From the IMG/VR virus record IMGVR_UViG_3300025133_000346, positions 1 through 35,311 of that record: 35,311 bases of DNA. One strand, 5' to 3'. Made by a program: the position numbers and the translations under genes. Shown here piece after piece: positions 1 through 28,655 of the stretch (position 1 is its first letter; every line of letters starts with the position of its first letter). Under the pieces are notes generated by a model, which saw nothing but the letters and a program-made list of their open reading frames with translations, ran no database searches and was not told the DNA's origin. Source of the DNA: a virus.

Positions 1-24
1 GGGAACCTAGACGCGAAAGGAGTT

Positions 25-450
25 ATGACGGCGGTGACACGGGTTAATAACAAGAGGGCATCAAGCAAGGATAGGCTTGCTAGACGAGATGCTGCTAAAG
101 CTGCTAAGGACGACTCTGTAAATGAGGGAAGTGCTGGCCTTAAACGTCTAGGGCGCAAAGCGGCGAGTGCTGAAAAGAAAGGGAACACTAGTACTACAGA
201 CGCAATGAAGTTTGTTACAAAACTGAGGGATAGCGGAAAGAGGTCAAAAAAGAGAAACCACTATGAGCATGGGGAGTATGTCACAAGACGCTCCAGCAAG
301 GAATATAGGCGAGAACGTCAAAACTCCCTCTCTAAGAAAACCTCACGGGATTTCGAAAAAGGTGAAACAAAAGCTGGGAACGAGGTGTGGGATAGGAATG
401 ACTCTGCAAACAGAGGGACAGGCCTTCCGGTTAAACTCGACTCCCAATAG
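25..450 (+). CDS. Very basic, low-complexity protein (141 aa)
   Basis: Function not recognised. The protein is rich in Lys, Arg, Ser and Asp, has almost no hydrophobic core, and has no signal peptide or membrane segment, so it is probably disordered. The ATG is preceded by a good ribosome site (AAAGGAG, 3 bases before the ATG). A strong terminator follows directly, so it is the last gene of its transcript. A second basic protein of similar make-up lies at 1976-2563 on the other strand. A nucleic-acid-binding or packaged internal role is a guess from composition only. Confidence 0.65.
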   Translation: MTAVTRVNNKRASSKDRLARRDAAKAAKDDSVNEGSAGLKRLGRKAASAEKKGNTSTTDAMKFVTKLRDSGKRSKKRNHYEHGEYVTRRSSKEYRRERQNSLSKKTSRDFEKGETKAGNEVWDRNDSANRGTGLPVKLDSQ

Positions 451-452
451 TT

Positions 453-487
453 AAAGCCCCGTAGGATTTTAGTCCTACGGGGCTTTT
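453..487. terminator. Strong bidirectional intrinsic terminator
   Basis: A 14-base stem (AAAGCCCCGTAGGA paired with TCCTACGGGGCTTT) with a 6-base loop is flanked by A and T runs, so it can stop transcripts on both strands. It separates the basic-protein gene (+) from the convergent neck-protein operon (-). Confidence 0.92.
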
Positions 488-497
488 CTCATTTAGA

Positions 498-1028
498 TTA
501 ACCTATGGTATCTGTGATGAGACTCTCTAAGTCCCTTCTCACACTTGCGGTTACTGCGTAATGGTATACGCCGTACCCTGCAAAACCTTGTTCCTGTACC
601 TCATGTACTTCGAATACAATGTTTTGGAACCTTGGTTGAATTACATCACCTGCCTCCAAAGGTCTGTGCAATTGAGTATCTAAGTAGCTCTTGTTAAACG
701 TAAAGGTTTGGTCGTTGGTAAGCTTAATACCGAACTCTGATAGTTCCTCACCAATTGGGATAGGTGTGTAGTGTCCTCGGACAAGTACTTTCGTGGCGTA
801 CTTCTTAAGCCTATCCTCTTCGTACAGTTCGTCGTAGTTGCTATCTGTTTCTACTTTGTAAATATAGAACTCAGAACCTCCGAGGGCAATTTGCTCCTCG
901 TCGATAATATTGAAGAACCCGATGTCTGGGTTTTCCTCGCTGAACATATCAAGGCGAACATCCTCAGGTACTTCAACCTCCGGTAGGGAGCCATGTCCAT
1001 GCTTGTTGAAGTGCTTTCTTAGGTTCAT
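498..1028 (-). CDS. Putative neck / head-completion protein, T4 gp14-like (176 aa)
   Basis: The pattern in the C-terminal two thirds is like T4-type gp14 neck proteins. There is an EFGIKLTNDQTFTFNKSYLD stretch (compare FGIEIRDQATF in that family). It is followed by RPLEAGDVIQPRF and a FEVHEVQEQGFAGYGVYHY-type segment, matching the family order RPxxGDLIY / LFEIKFVEHExxFYxxG. T4 gp14 is about 256 aa, so this form is short. In T4 the protein closes the filled head and joins it to the tail. It is the last gene of a three-gene leftward operon (1392, 1313, 1028) and its start abuts the previous stop. The match is from remembered motifs, so the family call is moderate. Confidence 0.5.
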   Translation of the reverse strand: MNLRKHFNKHGHGSLPEVEVPEDVRLDMFSEENPDIGFFNIIDEEQIALGGSEFYIYKVETDSNYDELYEEDRLKKYATKVLVRGHYTPIPIGEELSEFGIKLTNDQTFTFNKSYLDTQLHRPLEAGDVIQPRFQNIVFEVHEVQEQGFAGYGVYHYAVTASVRRDLESLITDTIG

Positions 1029-1313
1029 TTACTTACTCTCTTTCTTCTTAACTCCACCAGTTCCCTCAGTAATAGTCTTTAGGTGCTTCAACTCTTTGGT
1101 AGCTCTCGTTAGGCGAATTCTATTACGTTCCGCATCCGCTTGCATCTCTACCTTTCTGAGTTTCTTACGGGAGGCATCTGACTTCTTACGCAATTGCTTA
1201 AGTTCTTTGTCCCCTCCATCCGGGTCGTAAGGCTCAGAGGTGTGCGGACACATGTAGCACTCTTTGATTTTACTCTCAGAGATTAAACCGAAGAAATTAC
1301 TTGCGCCACTCAT
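1029..1313 (-). CDS. Hypothetical charged coiled-coil protein (94 aa)
   Basis: Not recognised. Residues about 17-35 hold a CYMC motif (one CxxC pair) and a Pro/Asp-rich turn. The rest, from about residue 36, is a highly charged Lys/Arg/Glu helix that reads like a coiled coil and ends in a Lys-rich tail. The ribosome site AAGGAG lies 6 bases before the ATG, inside the preceding 31-residue gene. Its stop is directly followed by the start of the gp14-like gene, so the two are probably made together. Confidence 0.7.
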   Translation of the reverse strand: MSGASNFFGLISESKIKECYMCPHTSEPYDPDGGDKELKQLRKKSDASRKKLRKVEMQADAERNRIRLTRATKELKHLKTITEGTGGVKKKESK

Positions 1314-7524: not shown

Positions 7525-7611
7525 GTAAAATTTTATATGTGTAATTTTTTAAAGGGACTCCTAAGATATGGTAAAATTTTATATGTGTAATTTTTTAAAG
7601 GGACTCCTAAG
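7525..7611 (+). repeat. 46-bp direct repeat, two copies
   Basis: Copies start at 7525 and 7571; the first 41 bases are identical (GTAAAATTTTATATGTG and onward to GGGACTCCTAAGA). Each copy is AT-rich and promoter-like, with TGTGTAATTT ahead of AAAGGGACTCC. Confidence 0.85.
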
Positions 7612-7664
7612 AGGAAGACTGGAACCTTCGGTTGTATTGTGTACCCAAAGGAAACTGGAGTCCC
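7600..7664 (+). ncRNA. Candidate small structured RNA
   Basis: GGGACTCC at 7600 pairs perfectly with GGAGTCCC at 7657, closing a 65-nt domain. Inside, AACC-TTC-GGTT forms a short hairpin. The 5' stem strand lies in the duplicated AT-rich promoter-like unit just upstream. It does not fit a tRNA (no T-arm) or any riboswitch I know. Transcription of it is inferred. Confidence 0.35.
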
Positions 7665-7749
7665 TAGAACGCGAACCCTTTTCTGTCAAGCTTATTCTGG
7701 GAAATCTTTGAGACATATCAAGACTCAATAGTATTTTGTCTACCTCATG

Positions 7750-7778
7750 CCCTTACCATATCCTTCATGCCGTGTCAA
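7750..7778 (-). promoter_or_regulatory. Leftward TTGACA-N17-TAAGGG element
   Basis: A perfect -35 (TTGACA) and a non-standard -10 (TAAGGG) with a 17-base spacer, read on the minus strand. One of eight related elements in 7.7-11.1 kb. Downstream it meets GTAGACAAAATACT. Confidence 0.5.
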
Positions 7779-7823
7779 GGATAAAAGAAATATAATAAGT
7801 GGCTCACTTTACCTTGTTTAGCG

Positions 7824-7852
7824 TTGACGCTACATATGCGCAGCCCTAAGAT
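7824..7852 (+). promoter_or_regulatory. Sigma-70 promoter for the 7859 gene
   Basis: TTGACG, 17 bases, TAAGAT; the -10 ends 6 bases before ATG 7859. RNA would begin at about the ATG. Confidence 0.65.
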
Positions 7853-7858
7853 AGGGGC

Positions 7859-8158
7859 ATGAAACAGCAAAGCCCACACTGCATCTCACTACCTTCTCCG
7901 TGCGATTTCGCACAGTCCGATAAGGATAAGATGGACAATAATACGTTTGAAGCATTGAAAGCTCTACATCATGCACACAAACGCCTAGCCGTTGGCATGG
8001 ACAACCTATTGCAGACCATCATTGACCTAGAGTGTGGTATTGACCCATCAGAGCACAAGAGCCTATGCGAAGGCCTACAAGAGGCCTATAGCCGTCTGCG
8101 AGCTGCTCAAATCAGGACTGTTAAGTCTTGGAACTACGAGGTACTCTTTATCAGATAG
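7859..8158 (+). CDS. Small unknown protein of cassette 1 (99 or 75 aa)
   Basis: Not recognised. The core from residue 25 (MDNNTFEALKALHHAHKRL) is helical with paired charges. Two starts compete. ATG 7859 lies 6 bases after the -10 and would be leaderless. ATG 7931 in the same frame has AAGGA 5 bases upstream and follows a GTGCGA-TT-TCGCAC hairpin, giving a 75-aa product. The N-terminal 24 residues are Ser/Pro/Cys-rich and look less protein-like, so 7931 may be the real start and the hairpin a leader element. Probably an early host-takeover gene, by position. Confidence 0.55.
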   Translation: MKQQSPHCISLPSPCDFAQSDKDKMDNNTFEALKALHHAHKRLAVGMDNLLQTIIDLECGIDPSEHKSLCEGLQEAYSRLRAAQIRTVKSWNYEVLFIR

Positions 8159-8168
8159 CAGCCCTGCC

Positions 8169-8303
8169 CTCCAAATTAAAAACTTGGAGCGGTGCGGCAA
8201 TTAACGAGTAAAGAGTATTTTGTCTACTTAGGGAGCGAATAGCGGAGCGGCAATTAACGAGTAAAGAGTATTTTGTCTACTTAGGGAGCGAATAGAAGAT
8301 AAA
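8169..8303 (+). repeat. Cassette intergenic unit: hairpin plus 53-bp tandem repeat
   Basis: A CTCCAA/TTGGAG hairpin (8169-8189) is followed by GCGGTGCGG. Then come two tandem copies (starting 8198 and 8251) of a 53-bp unit holding CAATTAACGAGTAAAGAG, the core TATTTTGTCTACTT and AGGGAGCGAATAG. The same order appears after the genes at 8709 and 9250. Confidence 0.85.
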
Positions 8304-8318
8304 GAGGTCTTTATATCG

Positions 8319-8347
8319 CCCCTAGCATATCCTGCCAGCCATGTCAA
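8319..8347 (-). promoter_or_regulatory. Leftward TTGACA-N17-TAGGGG element
   Basis: TTGACA and TAGGGG with a 17-base spacer, read on the minus strand, firing toward the 53-bp repeats and antisense to the 7859 gene. Followed by AAGGATAAAAGAAATA on the plus side, a shared header of the cassettes. Confidence 0.5.
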
Positions 8348-8392
8348 GGATAAAAGAAATAAAAGTTCTGGGCCATTTTACCCTTTTGGTTC

Positions 8393-8421
8393 TTGCATTA
8401 CAGAATAGGCTACTGTAGAAT
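8393..8421 (+). promoter_or_regulatory. Sigma-70 promoter for the 8428 gene
   Basis: TTGCAT, 17 bases, TAGAAT; the -10 ends 6 bases before ATG 8428. The -10 to ATG stretch TAGAATACTAGCATG is identical to the one before the 9992 gene on the other strand. Confidence 0.7.
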
Positions 8422-8427
8422 ACTAGC

Positions 8428-8709
8428 ATGTCAATAATCGAAAGAACAAAATGCTTACTCGGCTCCGCTAAATCCTACCGAATGGTAGAGAATGCTCGCC
8501 GCATCGATATGTTCGTAGAGCATGATACCTTTATCACTCTGCCCAAGGAGCAAGCTCTTAAGCTCATTACCGACTACCAGGAGGCCTTGGAGAAGTCGGA
8601 GAAGGAAATGAGCGCGGACGTGCACAAGCTCTTCCATGGAAAGCGCAGGACTGTTACCAACTTTGAGTACAATAACCACGTTATCATTGGGCTGCGGATA
8701 AGGGATTAA
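8428..8709 (+). CDS. Small unknown protein of cassette 2, predicted leaderless (93 aa)
   Basis: Not recognised; an alpha/beta soluble protein with a DYQEALEKSEKEMSADVHKL helix. There is no ribosome site before the ATG; instead a sigma-70 -10 ends 6 bases upstream, so translation of a leaderless mRNA is predicted. It is flanked on both sides by cassette repeats. Confidence 0.65.
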   Translation: MSIIERTKCLLGSAKSYRMVENARRIDMFVEHDTFITLPKEQALKLITDYQEALEKSEKEMSADVHKLFHGKRRTVTNFEYNNHVIIGLRIRD

Positions 8710-8728
8710 CCTGCCCAATAGCTCTACC

Positions 8729-8836
8729 CTCCAACTTAAAAACTTGGAGCGGTGCGGGAATTCAAGAGTAAAGAGTATTTTGTCTACTTAGGGAGCGAAT
8801 AGCGGAGCGGGAATTCAAGACCAAAGAGTATTTTGT
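8729..8836 (+). repeat. Cassette intergenic unit: hairpin plus 53-bp repeat
   Basis: The CTCCAA/TTGGAG hairpin (8729-8749), GCGGTGCGG, then a 53-bp unit starting GAATTCAAGA at 8758 and repeating at 8811, where the second copy runs into the leftward TTGACA element. Same plan as 8169-8303, with GAATTCAAG in place of CAATTAACG. Confidence 0.85.
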
Positions 8837-8838
8837 CT

Positions 8839-8867
8839 GCCCTAACTCTGCGCCACGGCCTTGTCAA
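8839..8867 (-). promoter_or_regulatory. Leftward TTGACA-N17-TAGGGC element
   Basis: TTGACA and TAGGGC with a 17-base spacer, read on the minus strand. The predicted RNA would start at AGACAAAATACTC, the core of the repeat. It is nearly identical to the element at 9318. Confidence 0.55.
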
Positions 8868-8912
8868 GGATAAAAGAAATATAATAAGTCGGTCGGATTT
8901 CCCGTTATATGC

Positions 8913-8940
8913 TTGCATTGCCCTACGGATGCTCTACAAT
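8913..8940 (+). promoter_or_regulatory. Sigma-70 promoter for the 8947 gene
   Basis: TTGCAT, 16 bases, TACAAT; the -10 ends 6 bases before ATG 8947. This decides the start: longer in-frame starts upstream would lie before the promoter. Confidence 0.68.
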
Positions 8941-8946
8941 GATGGA

Positions 8947-9150
8947 ATGAAACAGGCAAAACAGCTAGAATCAGTCTCTCATGCTCTCCTGCTATGCGTG
9001 GAAAAGCACCACCCACAACGCCCAACTAGTAAGGCATTGACGTTGGCAGCTATTCAGCGAGTGCCGCACGATTGCCAAGCTATCGGCATGGGGAAAGTCC
9101 GAAGCATGGCGAAGGCCGTTGCTAAGAGTGTGGGGGAGAACAATGTTTAA
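8947..9150 (+). CDS. Small unknown protein of cassette 3, predicted leaderless (67 aa)
   Basis: Not recognised. Helical with a basic C-terminal half (KVRSMAKAVAKSVG). The start is set by the promoter, whose -10 ends 6 bases upstream; no ribosome site is present. Its 3' end overlaps a 35-residue membrane-protein gene that does have a good ribosome site. Confidence 0.6.
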   Translation: MKQAKQLESVSHALLLCVEKHHPQRPTSKALTLAAIQRVPHDCQAIGMGKVRSMAKAVAKSVGENNV

Positions 9151-9250
9151 GCACATTAACAAGAAGAACCTAATCGACACCTTTTGGTACTTATTGGCAA
9201 TGGGAAGCGTCCTAATGTTCCTGGGTGCTGTCGATATCGTAAGGGTATGA
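9143..9250 (+). CDS. 35-residue membrane protein
   Basis: Starts MFKHINKKNLIDTFW and continues with one hydrophobic helix of about 20 residues (WYLLAMGSVLMFLGAVDIV). GGGGGAG lies 5 bases before the ATG, a strong ribosome site, in contrast with the leaderless gene it overlaps by 8 bases. A short single-pass inner-membrane protein; no function can be named. Confidence 0.62.
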   Translation: MFKHINKKNLIDTFWYLLAMGSVLMFLGAVDIVRV

Positions 9251-9260
9251 CAGCCCTGCC

Positions 9261-9316
9261 CTCCAACTTAAAAACTTGGAGCGGTGCGGGAATTCAAGAG
9301 TAAAGAGTATTTTGTC
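9261..9316 (+). repeat. Cassette intergenic unit, single copy
   Basis: CTCCAA/TTGGAG hairpin (9261-9281), GCGGTGCGGG, AATTCAAGAG and the AAAGAGTATTTTGTCT core, running into the leftward element at 9318. Confidence 0.85.
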
Positions 9317-9317
9317 T

Positions 9318-9346
9318 GCCCTAACTCTGCGCCGCTGTCTTGTCAA
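9318..9346 (-). promoter_or_regulatory. Leftward TTGACA-N17-TAGGGC element
   Basis: Same design as 8839-8867. The predicted RNA starts AGACAAAATACTC and reaches the T-rich loop of the hairpin after roughly 45 nt. Confidence 0.55.
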
Positions 9347-9391
9347 GGACAAAAGGAATAAAAGTTCTGGGCCATTTTACCCTTTTAGTTC

Positions 9392-9420
9392 TTGTGCTAT
9401 GGAATAGGCTACTGTAGAAT
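9392..9420 (+). promoter_or_regulatory. Orphan promoter of a decayed cassette
   Basis: TTGTGC, 17 bases, TAGAAT, closely like the 8428 promoter, with the same upstream header. Six bases after the -10 there is AGG instead of ATG, and no open frame follows. The gene of this cassette seems lost. Confidence 0.55.
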
Positions 9421-9465
9421 GCTTGTAGGAGAGCACTTCCATAGATTCCCATCAAGGTGATATCT

Positions 9466-9520
9466 CTGCCCTCCAAATAAAAAACTCCCCACGGTGCGGG
9501 AATTAACGAGTAAAGAGTAG
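9466..9520 (+). repeat. Dispersed CTCCCCACGGTGCGG element plus core
   Basis: AAAAAACTCCCCACGGTGCGG followed by GAATTAACGAGTAAAGAGTAG, a diverged copy of the cassette end in which the Cys-side hairpin is replaced by CTCCCCA. Confidence 0.75.
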
Positions 9521-9541
9521 TTTATCTTTATATCGGTGAAA

Positions 9542-9578: not shown

Positions 9579-9992
9579 TCAATCCACCCACATTTGGTTT
9601 AGTTCATCGACCGTAGGGATATCAGAGGCATATGCGGCCCTCTTTCGGATATCCTTAAGGAGTTCTTGATATTTCTCTACCATTGCGCTAGGCATCCTGG
9701 AGATATCAAAACAGTCTAGCGCACGCTCAGGAGTAAGGTTTAGCACCATACTGTGTATAACCATTTTCGACTGAGCCACGACGATTGGCTTAAGGTGGTC
9801 GGGATATTGGCCCTGGTCTAGCTGATAATCATTTTCATATTCGGCGGCCACCACGTTGGCAACGAAAATAATCAGGCCGGGACACTCCAGAGCAAGCGCA
9901 AAAGAGGTTTCGATGGGGCCATCATTGAACATACCAATCATGCCAGGTTTCACAGGGAGTTCAGAGAGGTCTAGGATGTAGTTGCTTGTCAT
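9579..9992 (-). CDS. Unknown protein, predicted leaderless (137 aa)
   Basis: Not recognised. An acidic alpha/beta protein; the N-terminal half contains LALECPGLIIFVANVVAAEYEND, the C-terminal half is helical (MPSAMVEKYQELLKDIRKRAAY). The ATG has no ribosome site; a TAGAAT -10 ends 6 bases upstream. The gene ends at a 12-bp hairpin, so it is a one-gene transcript. Likely an early gene of the same class as the rightward cassettes. Confidence 0.65.
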   Translation of the reverse strand: MTSNYILDLSELPVKPGMIGMFNDGPIETSFALALECPGLIIFVANVVAAEYENDYQLDQGQYPDHLKPIVVAQSKMVIHSMVLNLTPERALDCFDISRMPSAMVEKYQELLKDIRKRAAYASDIPTVDELNQMWVD

Positions 9993-9998
9993 GCTAGT

Positions 9999-10027
9999 AT
10001 TCTATTCAAGCGGATACCATAGGTCAA
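9999..10027 (-). promoter_or_regulatory. Sigma-70 promoter for the 9992 gene
   Basis: On the minus strand TTGACC, 17 bases, TAGAAT, then ACTAGC and ATG. Exactly 6 bases separate the -10 from the start codon. Confidence 0.7.
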
Positions 10028-10052: not shown

Positions 10053-10229
10053 AAAAAACTCCCCACGGTGCGGCAAATAACGATATACAGGTCGTTCAAT
10101 CGCTCCTATTTAAGACAAAATACTCTTTTATACACAGGTCGTTCAATCGCTCCTATTTAAGACAAAATACTCTTTTATATACAGGTCGTTCAATCGCTCC
10201 TATTTCAGACAAAATACTCTTTTGAAAAC
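10053..10229 (+). repeat. CTCCCCACGGTGCGG element and 47-bp tandem repeat, three copies
   Basis: AAAAAACTCCCCACGGTGCGG (10054-10074) precedes three head-to-tail copies (starting 10087, 10134 and 10181) of a 47-bp unit: ACAGGTCGTTCAATCGCTCC, TATTTAAG, ACAAAATACTCTTTTATAT. A fourth copy lies at 10432. There are no spacers between copies, so this is not a CRISPR array. The core AGACAAAATACTCTTT is the reverse complement of the one in the 53-bp repeats. Confidence 0.88.
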
Positions 10230-10232
10230 TCC

Positions 10233-10261
10233 TTGACAGCATACGAGAGATATGCTATGGG
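10233..10261 (+). promoter_or_regulatory. Rightward TTGACA-N17-TATGGG element
   Basis: TTGACA and TATGGG with a 17-base spacer (TGC precedes the -10). It faces a leftward element at 10302-10330, making a convergent pair about 98 bp across. Confidence 0.45.
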
Positions 10262-10301
10262 GCCAATAACGGATATAACGGTCTTTTATTCCACCTCTAG
10301 G

Positions 10302-10330
10302 CTCCTAGCATATCGGTGGGAGCTTGTCAA
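10302..10330 (-). promoter_or_regulatory. Leftward TTGACA-N17-TAGGAG element
   Basis: Read on minus: TTGACA, 17 bases, TAGGAG. Downstream GAATAAAAGACCGTTATATCC resembles the sequence after the 11084 element. It would transcribe through the 47-bp array. Confidence 0.45.
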
Positions 10331-10364: not shown

Positions 10365-10475
10365 AAAGAGTATTTTGTCGTTCCAAAGTCGCATCCGTTA
10401 AAAACTATAACGGTGCGGCAAATAACGATATACAGGTCGTTTAATCGCTCCTATTTAAGACAAAATACTCTTATA
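10365..10475 (+). repeat. Repeat core copies in both orientations
   Basis: AAAGAGTATTTTGTC at 10365, a GTTAAAAACTATAACGGTGCGG element near 10398 and a fourth 47-bp unit copy (10432-10472) with the core in the opposite direction. No gene is seen between 10005 and 10545. Confidence 0.8.
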
Positions 10476-10523: not shown

Positions 10524-10552
10524 TTGACAGACTTGCTAGGCTATACTAGGCA
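10524..10552 (+). promoter_or_regulatory. Rightward TTGACA element facing the 3' end of the 10920 gene
   Basis: TTGACA at 10524-10529; 17 bases later TAGGCA. It sits directly against the hairpin and would make RNA antisense to the leftward gene. Confidence 0.4.
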
Positions 10553-10920
10553 TCAATCTGCTGATTTTGCGGCAGCTCAGATACTAGCTTTTCGACAAGT
10601 CGAGTACGCTTAGCTTTAAGTTCTGCCAAGATAGAGTTGTGCAGCGGACGGTCTGCAATGGCATCATCGTAGCGGTTCTGCCATTGCTCAGCCTTAGCAA
10701 GTGCCTTAGACTTATTTTCCAGACCTACCTTGATAAAGCGAGCAATAGTGAGTCCTTCCTTTTCGCATTCTGCAATCTCCTCCTGTAATGCCATCACCTC
10801 TGGATGGTCTGCGACTTCCTCCGCCATCATCTCTTGCTGTAGGCGCAAGGTGTTTTGACGCGACTCTTCTAAACGTTCTTCAATCGAGCGAGTTGCTCCC
10901 CTAGTGTTTTTAATGGACAT
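10546..10920 (-). CDS. Unknown coiled-coil protein (124 aa)
   Basis: Not recognised. Residues about 12-60 are a Glu/Gln/Arg-rich helix (RLEESRQNTLRLQQEMMAEE) and the C-terminal part is also helical, so a coiled coil is likely. ATG 10920 is chosen over GTG 10929 because AGGAG lies 8 bases before it. Unlike its neighbours it has a leader of about 55 bases and a normal ribosome site. Confidence 0.65.
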   Translation of the reverse strand: MSIKNTRGATRSIEERLEESRQNTLRLQQEMMAEEVADHPEVMALQEEIAECEKEGLTIARFIKVGLENKSKALAKAEQWQNRYDDAIADRPLHNSILAELKAKRTRLVEKLVSELPQNQQIDA

Positions 10921-10979
10921 TTTAGTCACTCCTAATGTTGTGCGCGGTTTAGCGTTGTTGCTTCCCTTTGCGCTCTTTA

Positions 10980-11007
10980 ATTATAGGGCCGCGATGGCAT
11001 AGGTCAA
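10980..11007 (-). promoter_or_regulatory. Sigma-70 promoter for the 10920 gene
   Basis: On the minus strand TTGACC, 16 bases, a perfect TATAAT. Upstream GATATATGC and the -35 region match those of the 9992 promoter. Confidence 0.75.
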
Positions 11008-11032
11008 GCATATATCAGGAAATCTGGGCAAA

Positions 11033-11112
11033 TAAAAAACTCCCCCAAGTGCTGGATATCCCGATTAAAAGGTCTTTTATTCTGCCCTAGCATATCCTGG
11101 GGACGCTGTCAA
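11033..11112 (-). promoter_or_regulatory. Leftward TTGACA-N17-TAGGGC unit ending in GGGGGAGTTTTTT
   Basis: On the minus strand TTGACA (11107-11112), 17 bases, TAGGGC (11084-11089), then about 50 bases to GGGGGAGTTTTTTATT. The promoter plus T run would make a short RNA beginning AGAATAAAAGACC. The last part is the dispersed CTCCCCC element read in reverse. Confidence 0.45.
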
Positions 11113-11240: not shown

Positions 11241-11468
11241 ATGCAAGTAAACCGCAAATACGGTGTTGTTGGTAAGCGAAAGGCTACTAATGTACACATT
11301 TTCAAAATCAACGCAGGCCATGTTGCCGTTGCACAAATTGGCCGCGTTACTCACCAAACTATCTGCTACGCTGCAACGCATGACGCACAAGGCTACAAGG
11401 ATAGTAAAAACGCTGCACGTCGGGTTGTTCGTGCCAACTATGAGAAAGCAGGACGCGCGTATGCGTAA
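11241..11468 (+). CDS. Small basic unknown protein (75 aa)
   Basis: Not recognised. Strongly basic, with a beta-rich first half (TNVHIFKINAGHVAVAQIGR) and a basic helix at the end (KNAARRVVRANYEKAGRAYA), so DNA or RNA binding is possible. ATG 11241 is chosen because AAAGGAG lies 10 bases upstream and the promoter at 11158 excludes longer starts. A long terminator hairpin follows. Confidence 0.65.
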   Translation: MQVNRKYGVVGKRKATNVHIFKINAGHVAVAQIGRVTHQTICYAATHDAQGYKDSKNAARRVVRANYEKAGRAYA

Positions 11469-11562: not shown

Positions 11563-11675
11563 GATAAACTACTCTTTATTTGTCTTTAGGATTAAAAACT
11601 CCCCCAGGTGCGGAAGATTTCAGACCTTATTGTCTTTTATTTGACCCTATTTAAGACAAAATACTCTTATATCCA
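11563..11675 (+). repeat. CTCCCCCAGGTGCGG element and repeat core
   Basis: A broken core copy at about 11563-11586, then ATTAAAAACTCCCCCAGGTGCGG (11591-11613) and GACCCTATTTAAGACAAAATACTCTT at 11643-11668, again arranged as in the 47-bp units. No gene is seen in 11469-11718. Confidence 0.75.
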
Positions 11676-11718: not shown

Positions 11719-12171
11719 CTACCTTAAAGGGTTCTCATATGTTCTATGCTCTAATCTGTGGCAATTAGAGCATAGAAGGTCACACTTCGCAAGCTCTGCC
11801 AATACTTTACTTGTGATTTGACTTATGCCCGACATAGAGAAAAGTTTGTCTTCCGGCTCTCTATGGTGGAAATCAAACACTTGGGGGTGGCCATGGAATC
11901 CACACTTTTCGCACTTGTCCCCCTTAAGTACCATAAGCTCCAATTTAGTTTTCTGTTTTTCGGATAGCTCTTTCACCGATTTATCATCTGTCTTAGGCAA
12001 CGGTCGGTTAATCGCAGTAGAGCGGCAATACTTACATTTGCCATACCATAACTTATTAGGTCTAAACTCTGCCCAGGGTTTCCATATTCTACACTTCGGA
12101 CATCTTTTTAACTGGTTAACACAATCCCAAATAGCACCATTCTTCATCTTCATATCTTTCTTTGCTCCCAT
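11719..12171 (-). CDS. HNH endonuclease (150 aa)
   Basis: The C-terminal half has the HNH pattern: CEKCGFHG, then VFDFHHREPEDK (the HH of the motif), and LLCSNCHRLEH, giving four zinc Cys in two CxxC pairs and the catalytic His residues. An extra N-terminal CPKC/CKYC ribbon (about residues 24-49) precedes it. This build is typical of free-standing phage HNH nucleases, often mobile. ATG 12171 or a later in-frame ATG near 12153 (GGGAGC upstream) could be the start. The promoter region carries two inverted repeats that look like operators. Confidence 0.85.
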   Translation of the reverse strand: MGAKKDMKMKNGAIWDCVNQLKRCPKCRIWKPWAEFRPNKLWYGKCKYCRSTAINRPLPKTDDKSVKELSEKQKTKLELMVLKGDKCEKCGFHGHPQVFDFHHREPEDKLFSMSGISQITSKVLAELAKCDLLCSNCHRLEHRTYENPLR

Positions 12172-15493: not shown

Positions 15494-16246
15494 TTAAACC
15501 TCAAAGTTTTTCTTGATTTTGCTTTTCATCACTACGCCATGCGCAGGGTACAAAACATTTTCTACCTTACGATTCCAGCAAGCGCGGCATTGACCACACT
15601 TACCAGCCCTATTGTAAGAACGACAAACTACAATACCCTTTTGGGCTTTCACAGTATCAACATTCTCTACAACAAAAGAGTATTGTCCCCAGCCTAAAGT
15701 ATCAACATCATCAGCACTATCAGCAGTGATAACTTGCCCAGTAGACCGACGAACAACTACGTTATCCAAATTCTCTAAACTCTCTAGAGCTTCTGCAATC
15801 TCAGCAACTTTCCAAGCGAGAGTTGGAATCCAGAATTTAGTATCAGGACAACGCTTGCATACTTCCAAGATTTTCTCTGCCAACTCTACACAATAAACAT
15901 CACCACTATCGAAAAAGCGGAAATACCTTTCGTGCTTAAGAGTTGCTACCATCTTGGATACCCAATCAGGCTTTTGCCAATCCTGCATATTGTGTTCCCT
16001 AACTGCTTTCACATTCTTGTAAAGATAGTTTCCAGTAGTGGCGTAACATCCTTGGCAGGAAGGGACAAGTTTAGCGTCAGAATCAAAGGCGTTTTGCCAA
16101 TCTTGCAACTTCCCGCTATAGTTTTCGTAAGACTCGGAAGAGCCTGGACAAGTAAGCAAAGCGGGAAGCGACCAAGATAAACAAGGCATTTTAGAAGCCT
16201 TACTAAACTTAGGACTTGCGTTTTCTAGTTGTGTGGGTGACGGCAT
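15494..16246 (-). CDS. Gp88-family phage protein (250 aa)
   Basis: Signature of the phage Gene product 88 family: MPCLSWSLPALLTCPGS near residues 20-37, CQGCYATTGNYLYKNV at about 64-79, later a DSGDVY stretch, and CRSYNRAGKCGQCRACW near the C terminus. The Cys-rich clusters suggest an Fe-S or zinc site; the biochemical role is not established. The start is set by a promoter whose -10 ends 6 bases before ATG 16246, so this mRNA is predicted leaderless. It heads the leftward operon to 12439. Confidence 0.8.
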   Translation of the reverse strand: MPSPTQLENASPKFSKASKMPCLSWSLPALLTCPGSSESYENYSGKLQDWQNAFDSDAKLVPSCQGCYATTGNYLYKNVKAVREHNMQDWQKPDWVSKMVATLKHERYFRFFDSGDVYCVELAEKILEVCKRCPDTKFWIPTLAWKVAEIAEALESLENLDNVVVRRSTGQVITADSADDVDTLGWGQYSFVVENVDTVKAQKGIVVCRSYNRAGKCGQCRACWNRKVENVLYPAHGVVMKSKIKKNFEV

Positions 16247-17342: not shown

Positions 17343-18779
17343 CTAAGACATCCTCCTGTCCCATTCTCGGTGGCTCTCAAGCCTCGCACGGATAGCCCCA
17401 AAGGTTTGTGGGGGTTCATAAGTTAGCTCCTTACCGCTGTCGTAGACAGTTACCAGAACATCCTCTTCGTAATCAGCTAATGTGATAACGTCGGAGTAAG
17501 TTCGGTAATTATACATTCCCAAGTCTCGCACCAAGCTCAACTTTCCTTTGAGGGAAGCCTTCATGCTTGAAGTGATTGGTTCTTTGTATACACCACGCCA
17601 TACACCATTGATGCAAGCAGCGTTACATTTAACTGCAAACTTGTGTGTGTCTCGGTCAAACTTGCGAAGCAAGCCACCACCACTGCCAAAGATAATGTTA
17701 TCTCCTGACCACCCATCGCTCTTCATGGCTGAGATAATATCAGACAACATATCGTAGTCAATACCATCACCTTGAAGAATCTTAATTCGGTCATTGAGAA
17801 CCTTATATCCTTTTCTGTTCTCAGTAGTTCCAAACGCTTCACCAAGGATGCGTAGACACTTGATTACAACTTCAACAGGGTCTCCTGAGTCAGGACGAAT
17901 AACCAACGGGTTCTTAGCAGCCAAGACATCGGCCTTTAGCTCCTCACCCCACAAGGTTGAACATGCCTTGAAGATATCATATGAGTCACTTACACATGAA
18001 TATGCAGCAATGCCTTCCATGTCCCCGAACTTATCAATCATGTTGCGGAAAGATTCAACCTCGTTCACTCTACCCCAAGAAGTAACAGTACTGTGCTGCG
18101 ATGCAGGTACAGAGAAACCAGCCATAAACTCATTGTAGAAGTAATCACCATACTGTAAAGCTTCTGAGTTATCAGTTCCCTTGAAGCTTGTTAGGTGTGC
18201 CAATCCAGCGACACCAGCTTCCTCTCGACAAGACACGCCACGATATCCAAAGTCATGCAACATGAAGTCAATATTCTCTGGTGAGCCAGTCTTCTCTAGG
18301 AACTCTAACAACATATTCTTGCAGTAGTAAGAGTTAGTTGCTACAGTAGTTCCACACCATTGATGGCTCAAAAGAGTCTCTACCCAATCTACAACCCATG
18401 CGTGTGCTGGGTCAGTATTGGTAATAGTCATCAAGACATTTCGTTTAGGGACAAGTGAGCCTTCACGAACAGCTTTGATTCGAAGTGGAAGATTTCCACC
18501 TAAACGGTCTACGATATCTCGGAACCCAGCTTCGTTGAAGATTTGGTCAGTGCCAAAGTGCGCAGCCCAATAGGGAATCGCACTATCAATGTCTGCGTGA
18601 GTTACCTTGGTATTCAGCAGTTCCATTACTTGAATCTGCATAGAAAACCATACGGTGGCAGGGAATCGTCCTCCCCGTGCCACAATATGAGACTCCATAT
18701 ACTCTGTTCCAGGTGGCAGTTGCAGCCATTGAGATACTTTGTGTGAGTCAGTTGCTTTACACCAATTTAAAGGAATCAT
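17343..18779 (-). CDS. nadV: Nicotinamide phosphoribosyltransferase (478 aa)
   Basis: Makes nicotinamide mononucleotide from nicotinamide and PRPP, the first step of NAD salvage. All family landmarks are present: DFGYRGVSCREEAG, FKGTDN, SVPASQHST with the catalytic His, VSDSYDIF, VIRPDSGDP with the conserved Asp, and IFGSGGGLLRK. Length matches bacterial and eukaryotic NAMPT (about 460-490). GGAG lies 10 bases before the ATG. Phage NAMPT is known from vibriophage KVP40 and others. No NMN adenylyltransferase is in this window, so the second step would be host- or elsewhere-encoded. A role in refilling NAD emptied by host defence is plausible. Confidence 0.95.
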   Translation of the reverse strand: MIPLNWCKATDSHKVSQWLQLPPGTEYMESHIVARGGRFPATVWFSMQIQVMELLNTKVTHADIDSAIPYWAAHFGTDQIFNEAGFRDIVDRLGGNLPLRIKAVREGSLVPKRNVLMTITNTDPAHAWVVDWVETLLSHQWCGTTVATNSYYCKNMLLEFLEKTGSPENIDFMLHDFGYRGVSCREEAGVAGLAHLTSFKGTDNSEALQYGDYFYNEFMAGFSVPASQHSTVTSWGRVNEVESFRNMIDKFGDMEGIAAYSCVSDSYDIFKACSTLWGEELKADVLAAKNPLVIRPDSGDPVEVVIKCLRILGEAFGTTENRKGYKVLNDRIKILQGDGIDYDMLSDIISAMKSDGWSGDNIIFGSGGGLLRKFDRDTHKFAVKCNAACINGVWRGVYKEPITSSMKASLKGKLSLVRDLGMYNYRTYSDVITLADYEEDVLVTVYDSGKELTYEPPQTFGAIRARLESHREWDRRMS

Positions 18780-19121: not shown

Positions 19122-19450
19122 TCAGAACTCCCATTAGCAATGCGCAGAGCATTGGCAATATCTTTCACAGAGTTTTTGTTATCATTCCAAATCCTTTGAG
19201 TAACATCCCCACTAGGAGTCATCAAAGTAAAGAAGTCTGTTGCAATGTGATACGTTTGCCAACGTTTGTAAGAAGAAGATTCAGAGTTCAACTCAAACAA
19301 CAGGCGCTGATGCAAAGGGGTTGTCCTTTCTTGCTCGTTCTCCAAAAAGTCTTTTGCTTCCTGTTTAGCTGCAATCATTCCTTGGAAGTCAGTGGAGTCT
19401 GCGAGTCGTTCAAAGAGTTCGCGTGGTACTTTAATGTTCGTTGATTTCAT
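19118..19450 (-). CDS. Hypothetical protein (110 aa)
   Basis: Soluble and helical; an N-terminal STNIKVPRELFERLADS resembles the start of many small DNA-binding or antitoxin-like proteins but the match is too weak to use. ATGA overlaps with both RtcB and the lipoprotein gene show a tight operon. Not recognised. Confidence 0.65.
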   Translation of the reverse strand: MKSTNIKVPRELFERLADSTDFQGMIAAKQEAKDFLENEQERTTPLHQRLLFELNSESSSYKRWQTYHIATDFFTLMTPSGDVTQRIWNDNKNSVKDIANALRIANGSSE

Positions 19451-20574
19451 CCTTTAATGTTGATGATTGGGTGTACGTGGTGAAGTGTTTTAACAAGGTC
19501 TTCTTGCAAGTGCATCACTTCATTAATGTCTTTGTATGCGAAGGGAGACTCATCTAACGTATCTTTAACGACACGGGCTTGAGTGCCTTGCATAGTAGCT
19601 TTAAAGTCCTCCATTGAAAGCTCACGCTTAGCTTGCTTTCTACCAAGAACTCTTCCTGCTCCATGAGAGCTAGAATATAGTGATTCAGGATTTCCTTTGC
19701 CTTCAACAATGAAAGAGCCGTCACGCATGTTGCCTGGAATTACACCTGACATACCTTTCTCTGCGTGAGTTGCACCTTTCCTGTGAACAATAGTTCCACC
19801 TGTAATCTCTGCGTGGTTGTGGTTTCGGTTAATCAGATGGTTCCAATCTCCCTCACCAACAATAATCTTGGCCATCACTTTCTCAACAGCTTTAGCAATT
19901 CTAGTACGGTTTAACAAAGCAAACTTCAAAGCCCAAGACATGTCTTGGTAATAATCAGAGCCTTCTTTGCTCATAATATTAAAACCAAAGTGGTCTTCAC
20001 GGGGCTTTCCATCAGGAGAAGCTAAACGCATATACTCAGTTGCAATACCATGACCTACGCCACGACTACCTGAGTGAACAATAATCCAAGTTCTTTCATC
20101 GGTTCCAACACCGATTTCAATGAAGTGGTTGCCACCTCCTAGAGTTCCTAAATTACGGAACCCTTTCCTCTTATCAAATGCCCCCTGCCCCAATGGGGTT
20201 AGGTCACTGGCGAATAAGTTTGGAGAATCCTGGAATTCCTCATGCGCGTTGAATCCAACGGGCACTTTGCTATAAATCTCATCGAAGATGGCTTTAGAGT
20301 TTTCTCTCACTTCATATGCATCAAAAGAAGTCGGAAGAGCTAACATGCCACATCCAATATCATAACCTACCCAAGCAGGAATGATTACATCTTTCGTTGC
20401 CACAACAGCACCAATAGGTAATGCGTAGCCTGGGTGTGCATCGGGCATCATAGCTCCTTGCACTGTAAAATCCATATGCATAGCAGATACGAATTGGTCA
20501 ATGGCTCCTTGCTCTAAGACCTCTGCGTAAATCTTGTATGGTTTTCCTAAGTCGTCTAGTTCTTTAACTTTCAT
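19447..20574 (-). CDS. rtcB: RtcB-type RNA ligase (375 aa)
   Basis: Joins 2',3'-cyclic phosphate or 3'-phosphate RNA ends to 5'-OH ends using GTP and Mn2+. Visible landmarks: PDAHPGYALPIG, VGYDIGCGM (metal Asp and Cys), LGTLGGGNHFIEIG, HSGSRGVGH, the NHNHAE stretch, RKGATHAEKG, IPGNMRDGSFIVEG and SSSHGAGRVLGR. It is compact compared with E. coli RtcB (408 aa) but has all core motifs. With seven tRNA or tRNA-like genes in the window, repair of tRNAs cut by host anticodon nucleases is a natural role. Confidence 0.95.
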   Translation of the reverse strand: MKVKELDDLGKPYKIYAEVLEQGAIDQFVSAMHMDFTVQGAMMPDAHPGYALPIGAVVATKDVIIPAWVGYDIGCGMLALPTSFDAYEVRENSKAIFDEIYSKVPVGFNAHEEFQDSPNLFASDLTPLGQGAFDKRKGFRNLGTLGGGNHFIEIGVGTDERTWIIVHSGSRGVGHGIATEYMRLASPDGKPREDHFGFNIMSKEGSDYYQDMSWALKFALLNRTRIAKAVEKVMAKIIVGEGDWNHLINRNHNHAEITGGTIVHRKGATHAEKGMSGVIPGNMRDGSFIVEGKGNPESLYSSSHGAGRVLGRKQAKRELSMEDFKATMQGTQARVVKDTLDESPFAYKDINEVMHLQEDLVKTLHHVHPIINIKG

Positions 20575-24801: not shown

Positions 24802-25200
24802 TTAAATCCCGTTAGGGAAGTTCTCTTCCATAAGGCGGTTCCAGGTGGCTTCATCCAATACTGGTTCGGATGGTTCGTTCTGAATCCCCACAATAGTCTT
24901 GCGAACAAGCTTTAGTCTGTAGATTCGAAACGCCAAAACTCGTCGGCATTCTTTGCCTTCATGGAATGCTTGTGCCCATCTCCCTGTTGGAGATTGCTCA
25001 TTTCTGTACTTAGCTTCCACTGCCTCGGCTGCTGCCAAGGAACGTTTGTTGGAACTGATGTCCAACGAAACTTGTGAAAGGGCACGATATGTACTGCCAT
25101 ACTCCTTAATCAAATCGGAAGCATGGAATCTTACGTTAATGTCAAAGAGCCGCTTTTCCCGTGAGGATAGGCGTGTTTCGTAGTAGTGTTTACTATTCAT
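24802..25200 (-). CDS. Hypothetical helical protein (132 aa)
   Basis: Mostly helical and charged (RLSSREKRLFDINVRFHASD; KECRRVLAFRIYRLKLV), no motif recognised. Its start overlaps the stop of the VWA gene by one base, so it is probably part of the same unit. tRNA-Trp follows at once. Confidence 0.65.
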   Translation of the reverse strand: MNSKHYYETRLSSREKRLFDINVRFHASDLIKEYGSTYRALSQVSLDISSNKRSLAAAEAVEAKYRNEQSPTGRWAQAFHEGKECRRVLAFRIYRLKLVRKTIVGIQNEPSEPVLDEATWNRLMEENFPNGI

Positions 25201-26129
25201 CAGATTGAAGCTGAGATATAGTTAGAGAGGCTATTTAGCAATTGGTGAGGAAATTCTGAGAAGTCTACATTTAGTACATCGTCACCGTACATTTTTTGCA
25301 TTGTCTCGTCGTTTACTCTGTTAAATGATTGGCCTTGCATGAAGATTGTGATAATGTTCATCCACTTGCCATACTTTTTGTACATGGCAGCATTTGTGCC
25401 CACAGAGGCACTCAAGCTGTATTCAGGCCCATGTACCGAGCCGAGGGGTTGACCGTCCGTAAGGTTGACAACCATGATATTTTTGGACATGATGTTTTCA
25501 CTAATCCAACGCTGCAACCCAGGAAGAACAATAAGCTCAGGAGTTGAGCTAGATTGCCCTTGTGCATTTTTAGGTAGAACCTTCAAAATCCCATCAACCC
25601 CTGAATGTTTAGCAGATTTAGGGGAAGTAGAACTGTATGTTCTGGAAAGACTGACTCCCGAACACCCCCTGCCGTCCTTTACTACATCATCAAAATCATT
25701 CTTACTCATGATTTCAATCCTAATGTTATCTCCCAACACCTCGCGCACTGCTTTGGTGAAAGCTGACACAATAATGTTGCAGTAATCAAAACGTCGTAGA
25801 TGATAACGTGCCCTTTCATCTTGCCCAGGCAAGGGAGGAACGCTGATGTACCCCTTCATTGAACTTGAAGCATCCATAAGGAAGATAATTGTTGAATCCC
25901 CTTTCTGTGCCTCAATTTTAGTTGTGAAGATATTATCATCATGTGTGTGACGATACAGACGAGCCATGTCAAGGCATCCACCTCTAGTATGTTCAATATC
26001 TGCATATTTTCGCTCAGTCAGCATAACCATATGCCGCTTAAACTTGTTACACATTTGGTCCCTTCGCTCAAGAAACATAGAAGGGATTTCATCTGGTGAA
26101 ATCAGATTATCTCTGTGGTATTCTCTCAT
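25200..26129 (-). CDS. VWA-domain protein, CobT-like (309 aa)
   Basis: The von Willebrand A domain begins at about residue 78 with STIIFLMDASSSMKG, a full MIDAS motif (DxSxS). Later NIMVVNLTDGQPLG supplies the conserved TDG. The N-terminal 75 residues resemble the lead-in of the CobT C-terminal region. With a MoxR/CobS ATPase two genes upstream this forms the typical AAA+/VWA pair. Such pairs remodel or insert metals into proteins in bacteria; phage forms are known but their targets are not. Confidence 0.85.
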   Translation of the reverse strand: MREYHRDNLISPDEIPSMFLERRDQMCNKFKRHMVMLTERKYADIEHTRGGCLDMARLYRHTHDDNIFTTKIEAQKGDSTIIFLMDASSSMKGYISVPPLPGQDERARYHLRRFDYCNIIVSAFTKAVREVLGDNIRIEIMSKNDFDDVVKDGRGCSGVSLSRTYSSTSPKSAKHSGVDGILKVLPKNAQGQSSSTPELIVLPGLQRWISENIMSKNIMVVNLTDGQPLGSVHGPEYSLSASVGTNAAMYKKYGKWMNIITIFMQGQSFNRVNDETMQKMYGDDVLNVDFSEFPHQLLNSLSNYISASI

Positions 26130-27634
26130 TACAATACATCCACTACGGTTACGTGGTAATCAATAGGGTGAGGTTGTCCCCCAATTGAAATTGAATCATT
26201 GCACCAAAAGCGTTTGTACCCTCGGTGAATAGTGTAGGTTTCAACCTTTGCTTTAAGGTCTTCTGGAATCTCTGCTTTCCCGTGAATACAATCTGGGGAA
26301 ACCTGGGAAGTTACAGTGTCGCTAAACGAGGCTCCTTCACCTTTCAGGAAGTTATCGTTGTAGTAAGGGTCAATTCCTGCGTTGAACACCCCGTATGTGT
26401 CGGGGTCACTAGACTCGTTAACATAGCTTTTGCCTTTGGAAATATAAACACTCCCTAGGTCTTCCCCCCGAAGAGGGTCTTTTGTAGTAGTAATCTTAGC
26501 GTTGTCCAGGCGAGTCTTTTTAGTAAAAGCTTCACTCTTTCGCAAGGTATTTCCTACATCATGTAGAGCACTCTTATCATCATTCCAAACAGAGGAATCA
26601 GTTAGGTCTAACTGTAGACAGTTAAGTGCTTTCTCGCTATAATCAGTCACTAGGCTGAAAATCTCAGGCATAAAGGACATCGCAGCAAGCTTAGCAAGCT
26701 GCCTTTCAGAAGCTTTCTGAATCTTACCCAAAGTTACTCCACGCGAAGCCTTAACATTGTCATGCATCCCGTAAAAGTAAAACCTAAACTCCAACAACTT
26801 GTAGGCTACGGAGCCATCCTTAAACAAGTCACCTCGGACTTTTTGGTATGCCTCCCAACCTTTGTTAACTAGCTTTTGGTAGTACTTCTTAATACTAGGG
26901 TTTGCCGTAGTGTCCAACTTGATATCTTCAAATGTAGAGATAAACTGATGGATATCTTTCACACTTTGGTAGATGAAGTCTGCAACTACGCGACTAGCTC
27001 CTTTAAACCCACGATGGTAAGTGCCACTAAAGAACTGCTGAGCGTTATCCCTATCTCTAAGCATCATGCTCAATCGAGGATTTACTTTGATGGCTTCACT
27101 GATTACCCTGAACATACTGACACTCTTACCATTCACATCCATCTTGATTGATTTCAGTACAGTAGTGAAAATGTCCCATGAGCTTGAGTAGTAAGTGTTT
27201 CCAGGGGAAACGTGTTCATTCTTTCGGAATGCCCTCATGGTATAGCCGATGGCAATATCAATATTACCATCGGCAACTACCCCATAAGGAATAATTACGT
27301 CAGCCGCTGCAACAACCCGTGGAAGTTGTTCAATGTCAGACTCAGAAGAGAATTTAACATTGAATTTTCTGCCAGGAGAGAGGATAGGTCCGTAATACTC
27401 CAAAACATTCTTAATAAGGAACAAATTACGAGCGCCTAAGTCAAGAACTTCATCCTCTTCCGGTAGCCAATTATTCAAATATTCAGCATCAATTTTTGGA
27501 CCGTTGTAGGGGGGCTTTTCGTAACCAAAGAATACACCATCATCACATTCTTCATCGGAACCTTCGTCTTCATCCCAATATTCTGCGGCATCGTCATCGT
27601 ACTCGTCATCGTAATCGTCGCAATAGTCACTCAT
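26129..27634 (-). CDS. Large acidic protein between MoxR ATPase and VWA (501 aa)
   Basis: Not recognised. The first 35 residues are almost only Asp, Glu and Tyr (a low-complexity acidic leader); the rest is a mixed alpha/beta protein without membrane segments or an obvious catalytic motif. It overlaps the VWA start by one base. CobT proteins have an N domain, an acidic linker and a C-terminal VWA, so a split CobT is one idea, but the order here puts the acidic stretch first. It may be the adaptor or substrate of the ATPase/VWA pair. Confidence 0.7.
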   Translation of the reverse strand: MSDYCDDYDDEYDDDAAEYWDEDEGSDEECDDGVFFGYEKPPYNGPKIDAEYLNNWLPEEDEVLDLGARNLFLIKNVLEYYGPILSPGRKFNVKFSSESDIEQLPRVVAAADVIIPYGVVADGNIDIAIGYTMRAFRKNEHVSPGNTYYSSSWDIFTTVLKSIKMDVNGKSVSMFRVISEAIKVNPRLSMMLRDRDNAQQFFSGTYHRGFKGASRVVADFIYQSVKDIHQFISTFEDIKLDTTANPSIKKYYQKLVNKGWEAYQKVRGDLFKDGSVAYKLLEFRFYFYGMHDNVKASRGVTLGKIQKASERQLAKLAAMSFMPEIFSLVTDYSEKALNCLQLDLTDSSVWNDDKSALHDVGNTLRKSEAFTKKTRLDNAKITTTKDPLRGEDLGSVYISKGKSYVNESSDPDTYGVFNAGIDPYYNDNFLKGEGASFSDTVTSQVSPDCIHGKAEIPEDLKAKVETYTIHRGYKRFWCNDSISIGGQPHPIDYHVTVVDVL

Positions 27635-27649
27635 AATTTGTTCCTAATT

Positions 27650-28498
27650 TTAGAACGTTTGCTTAATGTCCGAAGTGTTCGGACTTTCGAAAAGGTCTTC
27701 CTCATCAGCGTACTGACGAATTCGACGCACATCTTCTCCAGTAGAGGAGTCCATTTCAAACACAGACAAGACTACAAAGTTAAAGATGTCAGCGGAAGAG
27801 AATCCCGCCTCTGCCAAAGGAAGGCAGTTAAGAATGGTTCGTGGCGACACCGAAGCCAACAGGTTTCCTTCTTTTCGCTGTGCAACGATAAAGTCGAAAG
27901 CGTGAAGAATAGGCTCCATCAAAGCTAGGGCTTCTGGAGAAGTCCCACCATCTGACATGTACTTGCCCAACTCCCCACCAGTAAGGTATTTGAAGTGGAA
28001 CACAGTGCAACGGTCACGCAAAGCTCGGTCGATTGAACGAGCAGCAGAATATTCGTTACCTACGTTAGCAGTCAGAATAAAGCGAACACCTTTGGCTACC
28101 TTGATTTCACGACCAAGCTCTTCAACGAAAACGCTGCGTCGATGGTCAAGAAGTGGCAGCAAGATATTCATCGCTGCACTAGAGGCACGGGACACTTCAT
28201 CCAATGCAATCAAAGTGTTTGGAATCTGGATTTTAGTAGCCAGTTCCGCCAGTTGAAAGTTAGTGTTACCATCTTTCAATGCAAAGTGACCCAGAAGGGC
28301 CATACGAGCATCAGTGGTAGAGCCACAGTTAATAATGGTAAGTTCCATTCCTAGCTGATTGGCAACTTCCTGACAATAGGAAGTTTTTCCACTTCCTGTC
28401 TCGCCAGTAATTAGTACATTGTTGTCTTCGTCTTTAACCAAGACCTTGATGACCTCTTTTTGGCGGTCGTCAATTACAAAATCGGATTTCAAACTCAT
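27650..28498 (-). CDS. MoxR/CobS-type AAA+ ATPase (282 aa)
   Basis: Walker A GETGSGKT at about residues 30-37, Walker B LIALDEVSRAS, sensor 1 FILTANV and arginine-finger region SIDRALRDRC. The order and spacing fit the MoxR/CobS group. I use ATG 28498, because the only good promoter in the divergent region starts RNA near 28542; a longer in-frame start at 28678 would lie upstream of it. The encoded ATPase would work with the VWA protein at 25200. Confidence 0.9.
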   Translation of the reverse strand: MSLKSDFVIDDRQKEVIKVLVKDEDNNVLITGETGSGKTSYCQEVANQLGMELTIINCGSTTDARMALLGHFALKDGNTNFQLAELATKIQIPNTLIALDEVSRASSAAMNILLPLLDHRRSVFVEELGREIKVAKGVRFILTANVGNEYSAARSIDRALRDRCTVFHFKYLTGGELGKYMSDGGTSPEALALMEPILHAFDFIVAQRKEGNLLASVSPRTILNCLPLAEAGFSSADIFNFVVLSVFEMDSSTGEDVRRIRQYADEEDLFESPNTSDIKQTF

Positions 28499-28649: not shown

Positions 28650-28655
28650 TTGATT

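Follow-up and report, generated by a model that had tools for sequence, protein, structure and literature searches.

Repeated promoter and hairpin frames around unrelated small genes of an uncultured phage: a probable gene-shuffling region with predicted leaderless starts

How small phage genes originate, and how they are expressed once they arrive in a genome, is an open question on which the locus described here bears. It lies in the virus record IMGVR_UViG_3300025133_000346 (35,311 bases, referred to here as the window, whose positions serve as coordinates), and consists of repeated sequence frames, composed of promoters, a header, a hairpin and a core repeat, which surround small open reading frames (ORFs). 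We think it likely that this array is a plastic early-gene region, in which leaderless cassettes similar to the promoter-early/stem-loop (PeSL) cassettes of T4-type phages shuffle small genes by homologous recombination. Each cargo gene would possess its own host-type sigma-70 promoter, with transcription beginning at the A of its ATG to give a leaderless mRNA, and a gene landing behind such a start would therefore need no ribosome-binding site of its own. The repeated frames would act as short homologies for recombination by the phage itself, which encodes a RecA-like protein; in this way cassettes could be duplicated, swapped or emptied, presumably with a selective benefit.

The repeated frame is real, far above chance expectation and confined to about 7.66-11.67 kb, where it occurs in both orientations. 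Its core, AAGAGTATTTTGTCT, had been noticed in the preliminary description of this DNA and is found in 13 copies within two mismatches between 7727 and 11668, ten of them exact; the whole window holds 14 matches, with 0.17 expected by chance, and elsewhere in the overlapping 101.8-kb contig G001 (see below) there is none but one coding match with two mismatches. The header, TGTCAAGGATAAAAGAAATA, is exact in cassettes 1 to 3 and has two changes in cassette 4, and a search with its pattern gave four true matches against a chance expectation of 0.5. Within this phage the frames are alike at 91% over 119 nucleotides (nt). The array had been placed at 7735-9470, but frame parts in both orientations go on around leftward genes to 11.67 kb, and it is therefore larger.

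Four rightward cassettes had been described as sharing a single plan. A header with a leftward TTGACA and a rightward promoter are indeed present in all four, as is detailed in Table 1, whereas a gene and the CTCCAA/TTGGAG hairpin are found in only three. The genes of cassettes 1 to 3 are, as proposed, unrelated to each other (BLASTP), and cassette 3 contains two small ORFs. Cassette 4 has AGG instead of ATG and no gene, with only about 50 nt between its -10 hexamer and the next frame; on its 3' side CTCCCCACGGTGCGG stands in place of the hairpin and GCGGTGCGG is replaced by ACGGTGCGG. It is a frame which was either emptied or never filled, and its emptiness had been missed, as had the leaderless geometry. 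The suggested pairing of header variants holds for cassettes 2 and 4, whose 60 nt to the right of the header are 90% identical (z score 15.4; 63-65% between cassette 4 and the others), whereas cassettes 1 and 3 have a common TATAATAAGT start and, past it, a weak likeness (68%, z 3.8). To the left of the header, in turn, cassette 4 shares 90% identity with cassette 3 over 30 nt (z 9.3), compared with 57-63% for the other cassettes. Because its left block matches cassette 3 and its right block cassette 2, cassette 4 is most simply read as a chimera of the two types, joined within the 20-nt common header.

The position of the promoters relative to the genes is equally regular. In every filled frame, the first cargo start shows the pattern TTGxxx-16/17-TAxxxT-N6-ATG, in which exactly 6 nt separate the -10 hexamer from ATG (rightward starts 7859, 8428 and 8947; leftward start 9992). 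By the usual sigma-70 rule, this spacing puts +1 on the A of ATG, and the mRNAs are therefore predicted to be leaderless. Five of the six TTG-TAxxxT-N6-ATG sites on the whole map (about 113-114 kb) fall in the 5-kb array region, one of the five (12296) outside the frames. The same geometry recurs in related phages, all of them metagenome contigs which were collected via their terminase. The arrays of four relatives contain 27 promoters with at least 11 of 12 consensus matches, whereas the parts of nine loci outside the arrays contain 2; ATG follows at exactly 6 nt in 16 of the 27 and at 6-9 nt in 25, the chance expectation being about 0.018 per promoter and position. By a similar measure, the T4-type phage RB49 has no promoter 5-9 nt from an ATG, and its promoters assigned to an annotated start all lie at least 26 nt away, save one overlapping match. 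It is the host-type sigma-70 character of the array promoters that suggests early expression of the genes behind them.

Arrays of small ORFans stand at the corresponding locus of the relatives, with genes pointing away from the terminase, and the boundary motif GGAGTCCC..ACGCGAA is found at the array start in the window, L063, L072, L087, L107 and L128; in L076 the match is shorter. The nearest relative, L072 (terminase identity 68%), possesses at the syntenic place repeats of its own, 137-152 nt long, which surround different ORFans, gene promoters of the form TTGCGC-17-TAGAAT/TACGAT-N6-ATG, and hairpins (6 pairs) with T-runs which read opposite to its genes; L107/L151 likewise has its own 89-nt intergenic repeat between unrelated genes. 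It had been expected that the frame sequence could be used to find related phages with different cargo. The core, however, matched 45 viral contigs once each, with no array, the header matched none, and the L072 frame matched L072 alone; the frame sequences are therefore private to each phage. What is conserved instead is the locus, the plan and the -10-to-ATG spacing, and neither the repeat sequence nor the cargo.

The arrival of cargo can be followed in two pairs of relatives. In L091, the promoter-ATGAAAAACGAAGA segment (ATG AAA AAC GAA GA) runs directly into a gene ...LKYWLGDVEQ, whereas in L151 an ORF of 52 amino acids (aa) stands behind this start, and the LKYWLGDVEQ gene lies after that ORF and has an ATG of its own; as judged from these two contigs, this is a direct gene insertion behind a kept promoter and start. 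L128 and L151 have in common a -10 region with promoter-ATGGAAAACAGC (ATG GAA AAC AGC), which continues into two different genes, and in L151 a counterpart of the L128 cargo is found in another gene, which has a different N-terminus. By the same kind of comparison, this pair represents a gene swap behind a kept promoter and start codon. The junctions in the relatives fall after the first 4-5 codons. The proposal that the frame serves the gain, swapping and loss of small genes is thus well supported by the empty recombinant cassette 4, the L072 array and these two pairs, but a fixed frame sequence across phages is not borne out.

These comparisons also bear on two simpler or better-known routes. 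Tandem duplication of one gene unit, with later divergence or decay and no gene exchange between phages, would fit the likeness of the frames within the phage, and genes b and c of L072 both start with MSAPL and show a weak likeness (E value 0.004). Yet the cargo genes of the window have no detectable mutual similarity, the relatives fuse the same start to different genes, and GP88 genes are found inside the arrays of L151, L152 and L153 and outside the array in this phage (15.5-16.2 kb), all of which makes duplication by itself improbable. Integron-like or other site-specific cassette capture, for its part, could be imagined from the repeats between short unrelated ORFs and from the HNH endonuclease gene that adjoins the array. 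Integron cassettes require a tyrosine recombinase and recombination sites, however, and neither this enzyme nor another integrase was found in the window, G001 or two relatives; in addition, each gene has its own promoter, and the junctions in the relatives lie within coding starts and not at a recombination core. We consider capture of this kind very improbable indeed.

The element that points away from the gene promoters raises a question of its own. Between 7.6 and 11.2 kb there are ten TTGACA sites (2.8 per kb, compared with 0.68 elsewhere), nine of which have TA after 17 nt and then GG (TAxGG); of the 75 sites elsewhere, two have TA and none has TAxGG. The TTGACA-N17-TAxGG element is real. 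A MotA-like reading (TTGACA with TATxxT 12-13 nt away) was dropped because of the 17-nt spacing to TA in 9/9 copies and the TTGACA-18-TAxxxT of L072. In L072, the divergent promoter TTGACA-18-TACGAT is near consensus, with TG before the -10, and a T-run hairpin stands about 35 nt beyond it; the element is missing from other array-bearing relatives. Convergent TTGACA pairs about 100 bp apart occur in both phages (window 10233-10330; L072 69-184 and 1303-1417).

Such an element could indicate that the repeats are binding sites of a phage DNA-binding protein, be it a repressor with stoperator-like sites or the protein of an iteron-like origin, and that the small genes are incidental. The core would agree with this, as it stands in both orientations and in 47-nt and 53-nt tandem units not tied to a gene start, and so would the poor -10 of the element, its occurrence in both directions and its convergent pairs in the window and L072. 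L5-type stoperators of actinobacteriophages are short asymmetric repeated sites with TGTCAAG in intergenic gaps, and on the + strand the element reads TGTCAAG as well. Unlike stoperators, however, the sites here belong to a spaced, promoter-tied element, most copies of which surround small-gene promoters; its L072 analogue is a near-consensus promoter, the relatives provide direct evidence of cargo being exchanged around frames, and no integrase was found and no repressor recognised. We therefore regard binding sites as an unlikely explanation. Alternatively, the leftward elements could be promoters for short antisense or trans-acting RNAs, which would make the frames mainly RNA genes; the T-run hairpin past the L072 divergent promoter and the leftward terminator-like hairpins of the window (9486-9502 and 11600-11617) would fit this. 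Against it, the folding of the predicted leftward RNAs is no stronger than that of shuffled sequences (window z 0.3, 0.1, 0.2 and -1.4; L072 z -0.5 to -1.4), an Rfam search of them gave no credible family match, and the element is lacking in the other array-bearing relatives. RNA genes are thus less probable still than binding sites.

The reading as a plastic array of gene-shuffling cassettes can be compared with known systems. PeSLs are reportedly mobile regulatory cassettes of T4-type phages, described by Arbiol and co-workers in 2010 and by Comeau and co-workers in 2014. In one account, a PeSL is an intergenic host-like promoter with a stem-loop, dense between small ORFans, and a site of gene shuffling (PMC4503421). 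The present array resembles this in its intergenic promoter unit, which is repeated between unrelated small ORFs of a plastic region and would itself be the place of shuffling; in its host-type sigma-70 promoters, which match the consensus in relatives and are degenerate in the window, though with the correct spacing; and in the different cargo within the same units of relatives (L151/L091, L151/L128). The hairpins of the frames may correspond to the stem-loop. It differs in the fusion of promoter and start codon, with predicted leaderless transcripts and junctions after the first 4-5 codons in relatives, in the divergent TTGACA element in the frames of the window and L072, and in a carrier whose map is about 113 kb and whose DNA polymerase is split over two ORFs with phrog_17 matches. 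The N6 spacing also contrasts with the distances of mostly at least 26 nt in the comparison phage RB49, a leader not being known as a defining feature of PeSLs. The 'ORFanage' or hyperplastic region of the T4-like cyanophage S-PM2 is a cluster of small ORFans without dense promoter/stem-loop units (PMC4503421); it is similar as a small-ORFan cluster in a variable region, but here nearly every gene has a frame. A separate class of gene-capture frame may, rather tentatively, be considered, in which promoter, start and first codons form one exchangeable 5' module giving a leaderless mRNA, so that any open frame behind it would be expressed at once without a ribosome-binding site, and to which the window/L072 lineage would add a divergent, phage-specific class of TTGACA-N17-TAxGG promoters with a function of their own; we would give this somewhat more credit than the binding sites, and far less than the shuffling of PeSL-like cassettes.

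Several observations weigh against the shuffling of early genes. Because the promoters of RB49 lack the leaderless geometry, homology to PeSLs is unproven. The rightward promoters of the window do not approach consensus closely, although their spacing is correct, a generic promoter scan of the array region is near chance (10 versus 7.1), and the N6 pattern across the map (6 versus 3.8 in shuffles) is not significant by count alone; early timing and start sites are predictions from sequence. The hairpin of cassettes 1 to 3 has no T-run and is therefore not a standard terminator, while the T-run hairpins at other frame copies in the window read leftward. The coding signal of cargo genes 1 to 3 is modest (z against shuffles 2.9, 2.6 and 1.3), and no homologues of them were found. 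The insertion and swap pairs come from metagenome contigs of relatives with about 55% terminase identity and not from this phage, in which the chimeric empty cassette 4 is the only sign of recombination; the window repeats are short enough that misassembly is conceivable, although the copies differ from each other.

Beyond the rightward cassettes, frame parts surround two leftward genes and end at a last core copy (Table 1). GGGACTCC, at the left edge, is also found beside the arrays of L063, L072, L076 and L107 and is possibly a boundary control element. In L152, one array gene (10699-11101) has a Destabilase/SLT lysozyme-like domain and an N-terminal hydrophobic stretch, which is unexpected in a predicted early array.

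Table 1. Features of the array and its edges, in window coordinates (core, header and hairpin as defined in the text)
Feature	Position	Strand	Remark
Perfect 42-nt tandem duplication	7525-7612		46-nt period; with GGGACTCCTAAGA
Left boundary motif GGAGTCCCTAGAACGCGAA	7657-7675	+	common to array starts of L063, L072, L076, L087, L107, L128
Leftward element TTGACA-N17-TAGGGA	7661-7689	-	overlaps boundary motif
Core copy	7727-7741	+	1 mismatch
Cassette 1 leftward element TTGACA-N17-TAAGGG	7750-7778	-	
Cassette 1 header	7773-7792	+	
Cassette 1 promoter TTGACG-17-TAAGAT	7824-7852	+	then 6 nt, ATG; predicted leaderless
Cargo gene 1	7859-8158	+	99 aa, ORFan
Frame 1/2 hairpin and GCGGTGCGG	8169-8197	+	fold z -2.4
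Two exact core copies	8211-8278	+	53-nt tandem unit
Cassette 2 leftward element TTGACA-N17-TAGGGG	8319-8347	-	
Cassette 2 header	8342-8361	+	
Cassette 2 promoter TTGCAT-17-TAGAAT	8393-8421	+	then 6 nt, ATG
Cargo gene 2	8428-8709	+	93 aa, ORFan
Frame 2/3 hairpin and GCGGTGCGG	8729-8757	+	
Two exact core copies	8771-8838	+	53-nt tandem unit
Cassette 3 leftward element TTGACA-N17-TAGGGC	8839-8867	-	
Cassette 3 header	8862-8881	+	
Cassette 3 promoter TTGCAT-16-TACAAT	8913-8940	+	then 6 nt, ATG
Cargo gene 3	8947-9150	+	67 aa
Small ORF	9143-9250	+	35 aa; overlaps end of cargo gene 3
Frame 3/4 hairpin and GCGGTGCGG	9261-9289	+	
Exact core copy	9303-9317	+	
Cassette 4 leftward element TTGACA-N17-TAGGGC	9318-9346	-	
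Cassette 4, with header and promoter	9341-9470	+	promoter TTGTGC-17-TAGAAT (9392-9420); AGG, no gene
Terminator-like hairpin with T-run	9486-9502	-	similar one at 11600-11617
Core copy	9513-9527	+	2 mismatches
Leftward cargo gene	9579-9992	-	137 aa; predicted leaderless promoter TTGACC-17-TAGAAT-N6-ATG (9999-10027)
Three tandem core copies	10113-10221	-	period 47; opposite orientation
Convergent TTGACA-N17-TAxGG pair	10233-10330	both	10233+, 10330-; core copy at 10366-10380
Core copy	10458-10472	-	
Element TTGACA-N17-TAGGCA	10524-10552	+	
Leftward gene	10546-10920	-	124 aa; distant homologue of L151 array gene (27% identity, E 4e-5); own promoter TTGACC-16-TATAAT, with leader
Element TTGACA-N17-TAGGGC	11084-11112	-	
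Small gene	11241-11468	+	75 aa; leader and Shine-Dalgarno-like AAGGAG, not leaderless
Last core copy	11654-11668	-	right array end
HNH endonuclease gene	11719-12171		phrog_2255, E 1e-27; adjoins right array edge
GP88 family gene	15494-16246		promoter-like TTGCGT-TAGAAT-N6-ATG; homologous to array genes of L151, L152, L153

The carrier of the array was placed by means of the overlapping record G001 (IMGVR_UViG_3300008050_000025; 101,825 bases), which matches window 12342-35311 at 99.95% and, with its far end, window 1-1051; joined, the two give a circular map of about 113 kb. An 11.3-kb stretch with the array is absent from G001, as if the assembly were broken there. The phage is uncultured, and its genes for terminase, portal, tail sheath, helicase, SbcCD-like and RecA-like proteins identify it as contractile-tailed, with a T4-related packaging module and terminase. 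The terminase, portal and sheath matches and the RecA family member would fit a T4-type phage, but identity to cultured phages is low (about 35% at best for the terminase), and no cultured phage matched the window at the DNA level. The DNA polymerase is of the phrog_17 type and is split over two adjacent ORFs, both of which match phrog_17, at different parts (L057 4776-7392). A search of prokaryote genomes for a relative of the terminase found none, and there is thus no hint of the host. Elsewhere, the window encodes a nicotinamide phosphoribosyltransferase (17343-18779) and an RtcB RNA ligase (19447-20574), possibly a set for nicotinamide adenine dinucleotide and RNA repair, and, consecutively at 25200-28678, a vWA-like-looking protein with no Pfam match, an unknown protein and a MoxR-type AAA ATPase.

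With promoter, transcription start and start codon all delivered by one frame, a ribosome-binding site would become dispensable, and the array is probably a ready-made means of trying new genes at an early stage of infection. In the relatives, the pairs that show insertion and swap make the arrival of genes observable in natural populations, and further arrays can be located by the search rule TTGACA-16/17-TATAAT-N6-ATG, in tandem beside the terminase. The cargo of such arrays would furthermore provide candidates for genes of host takeover and counter-defence.

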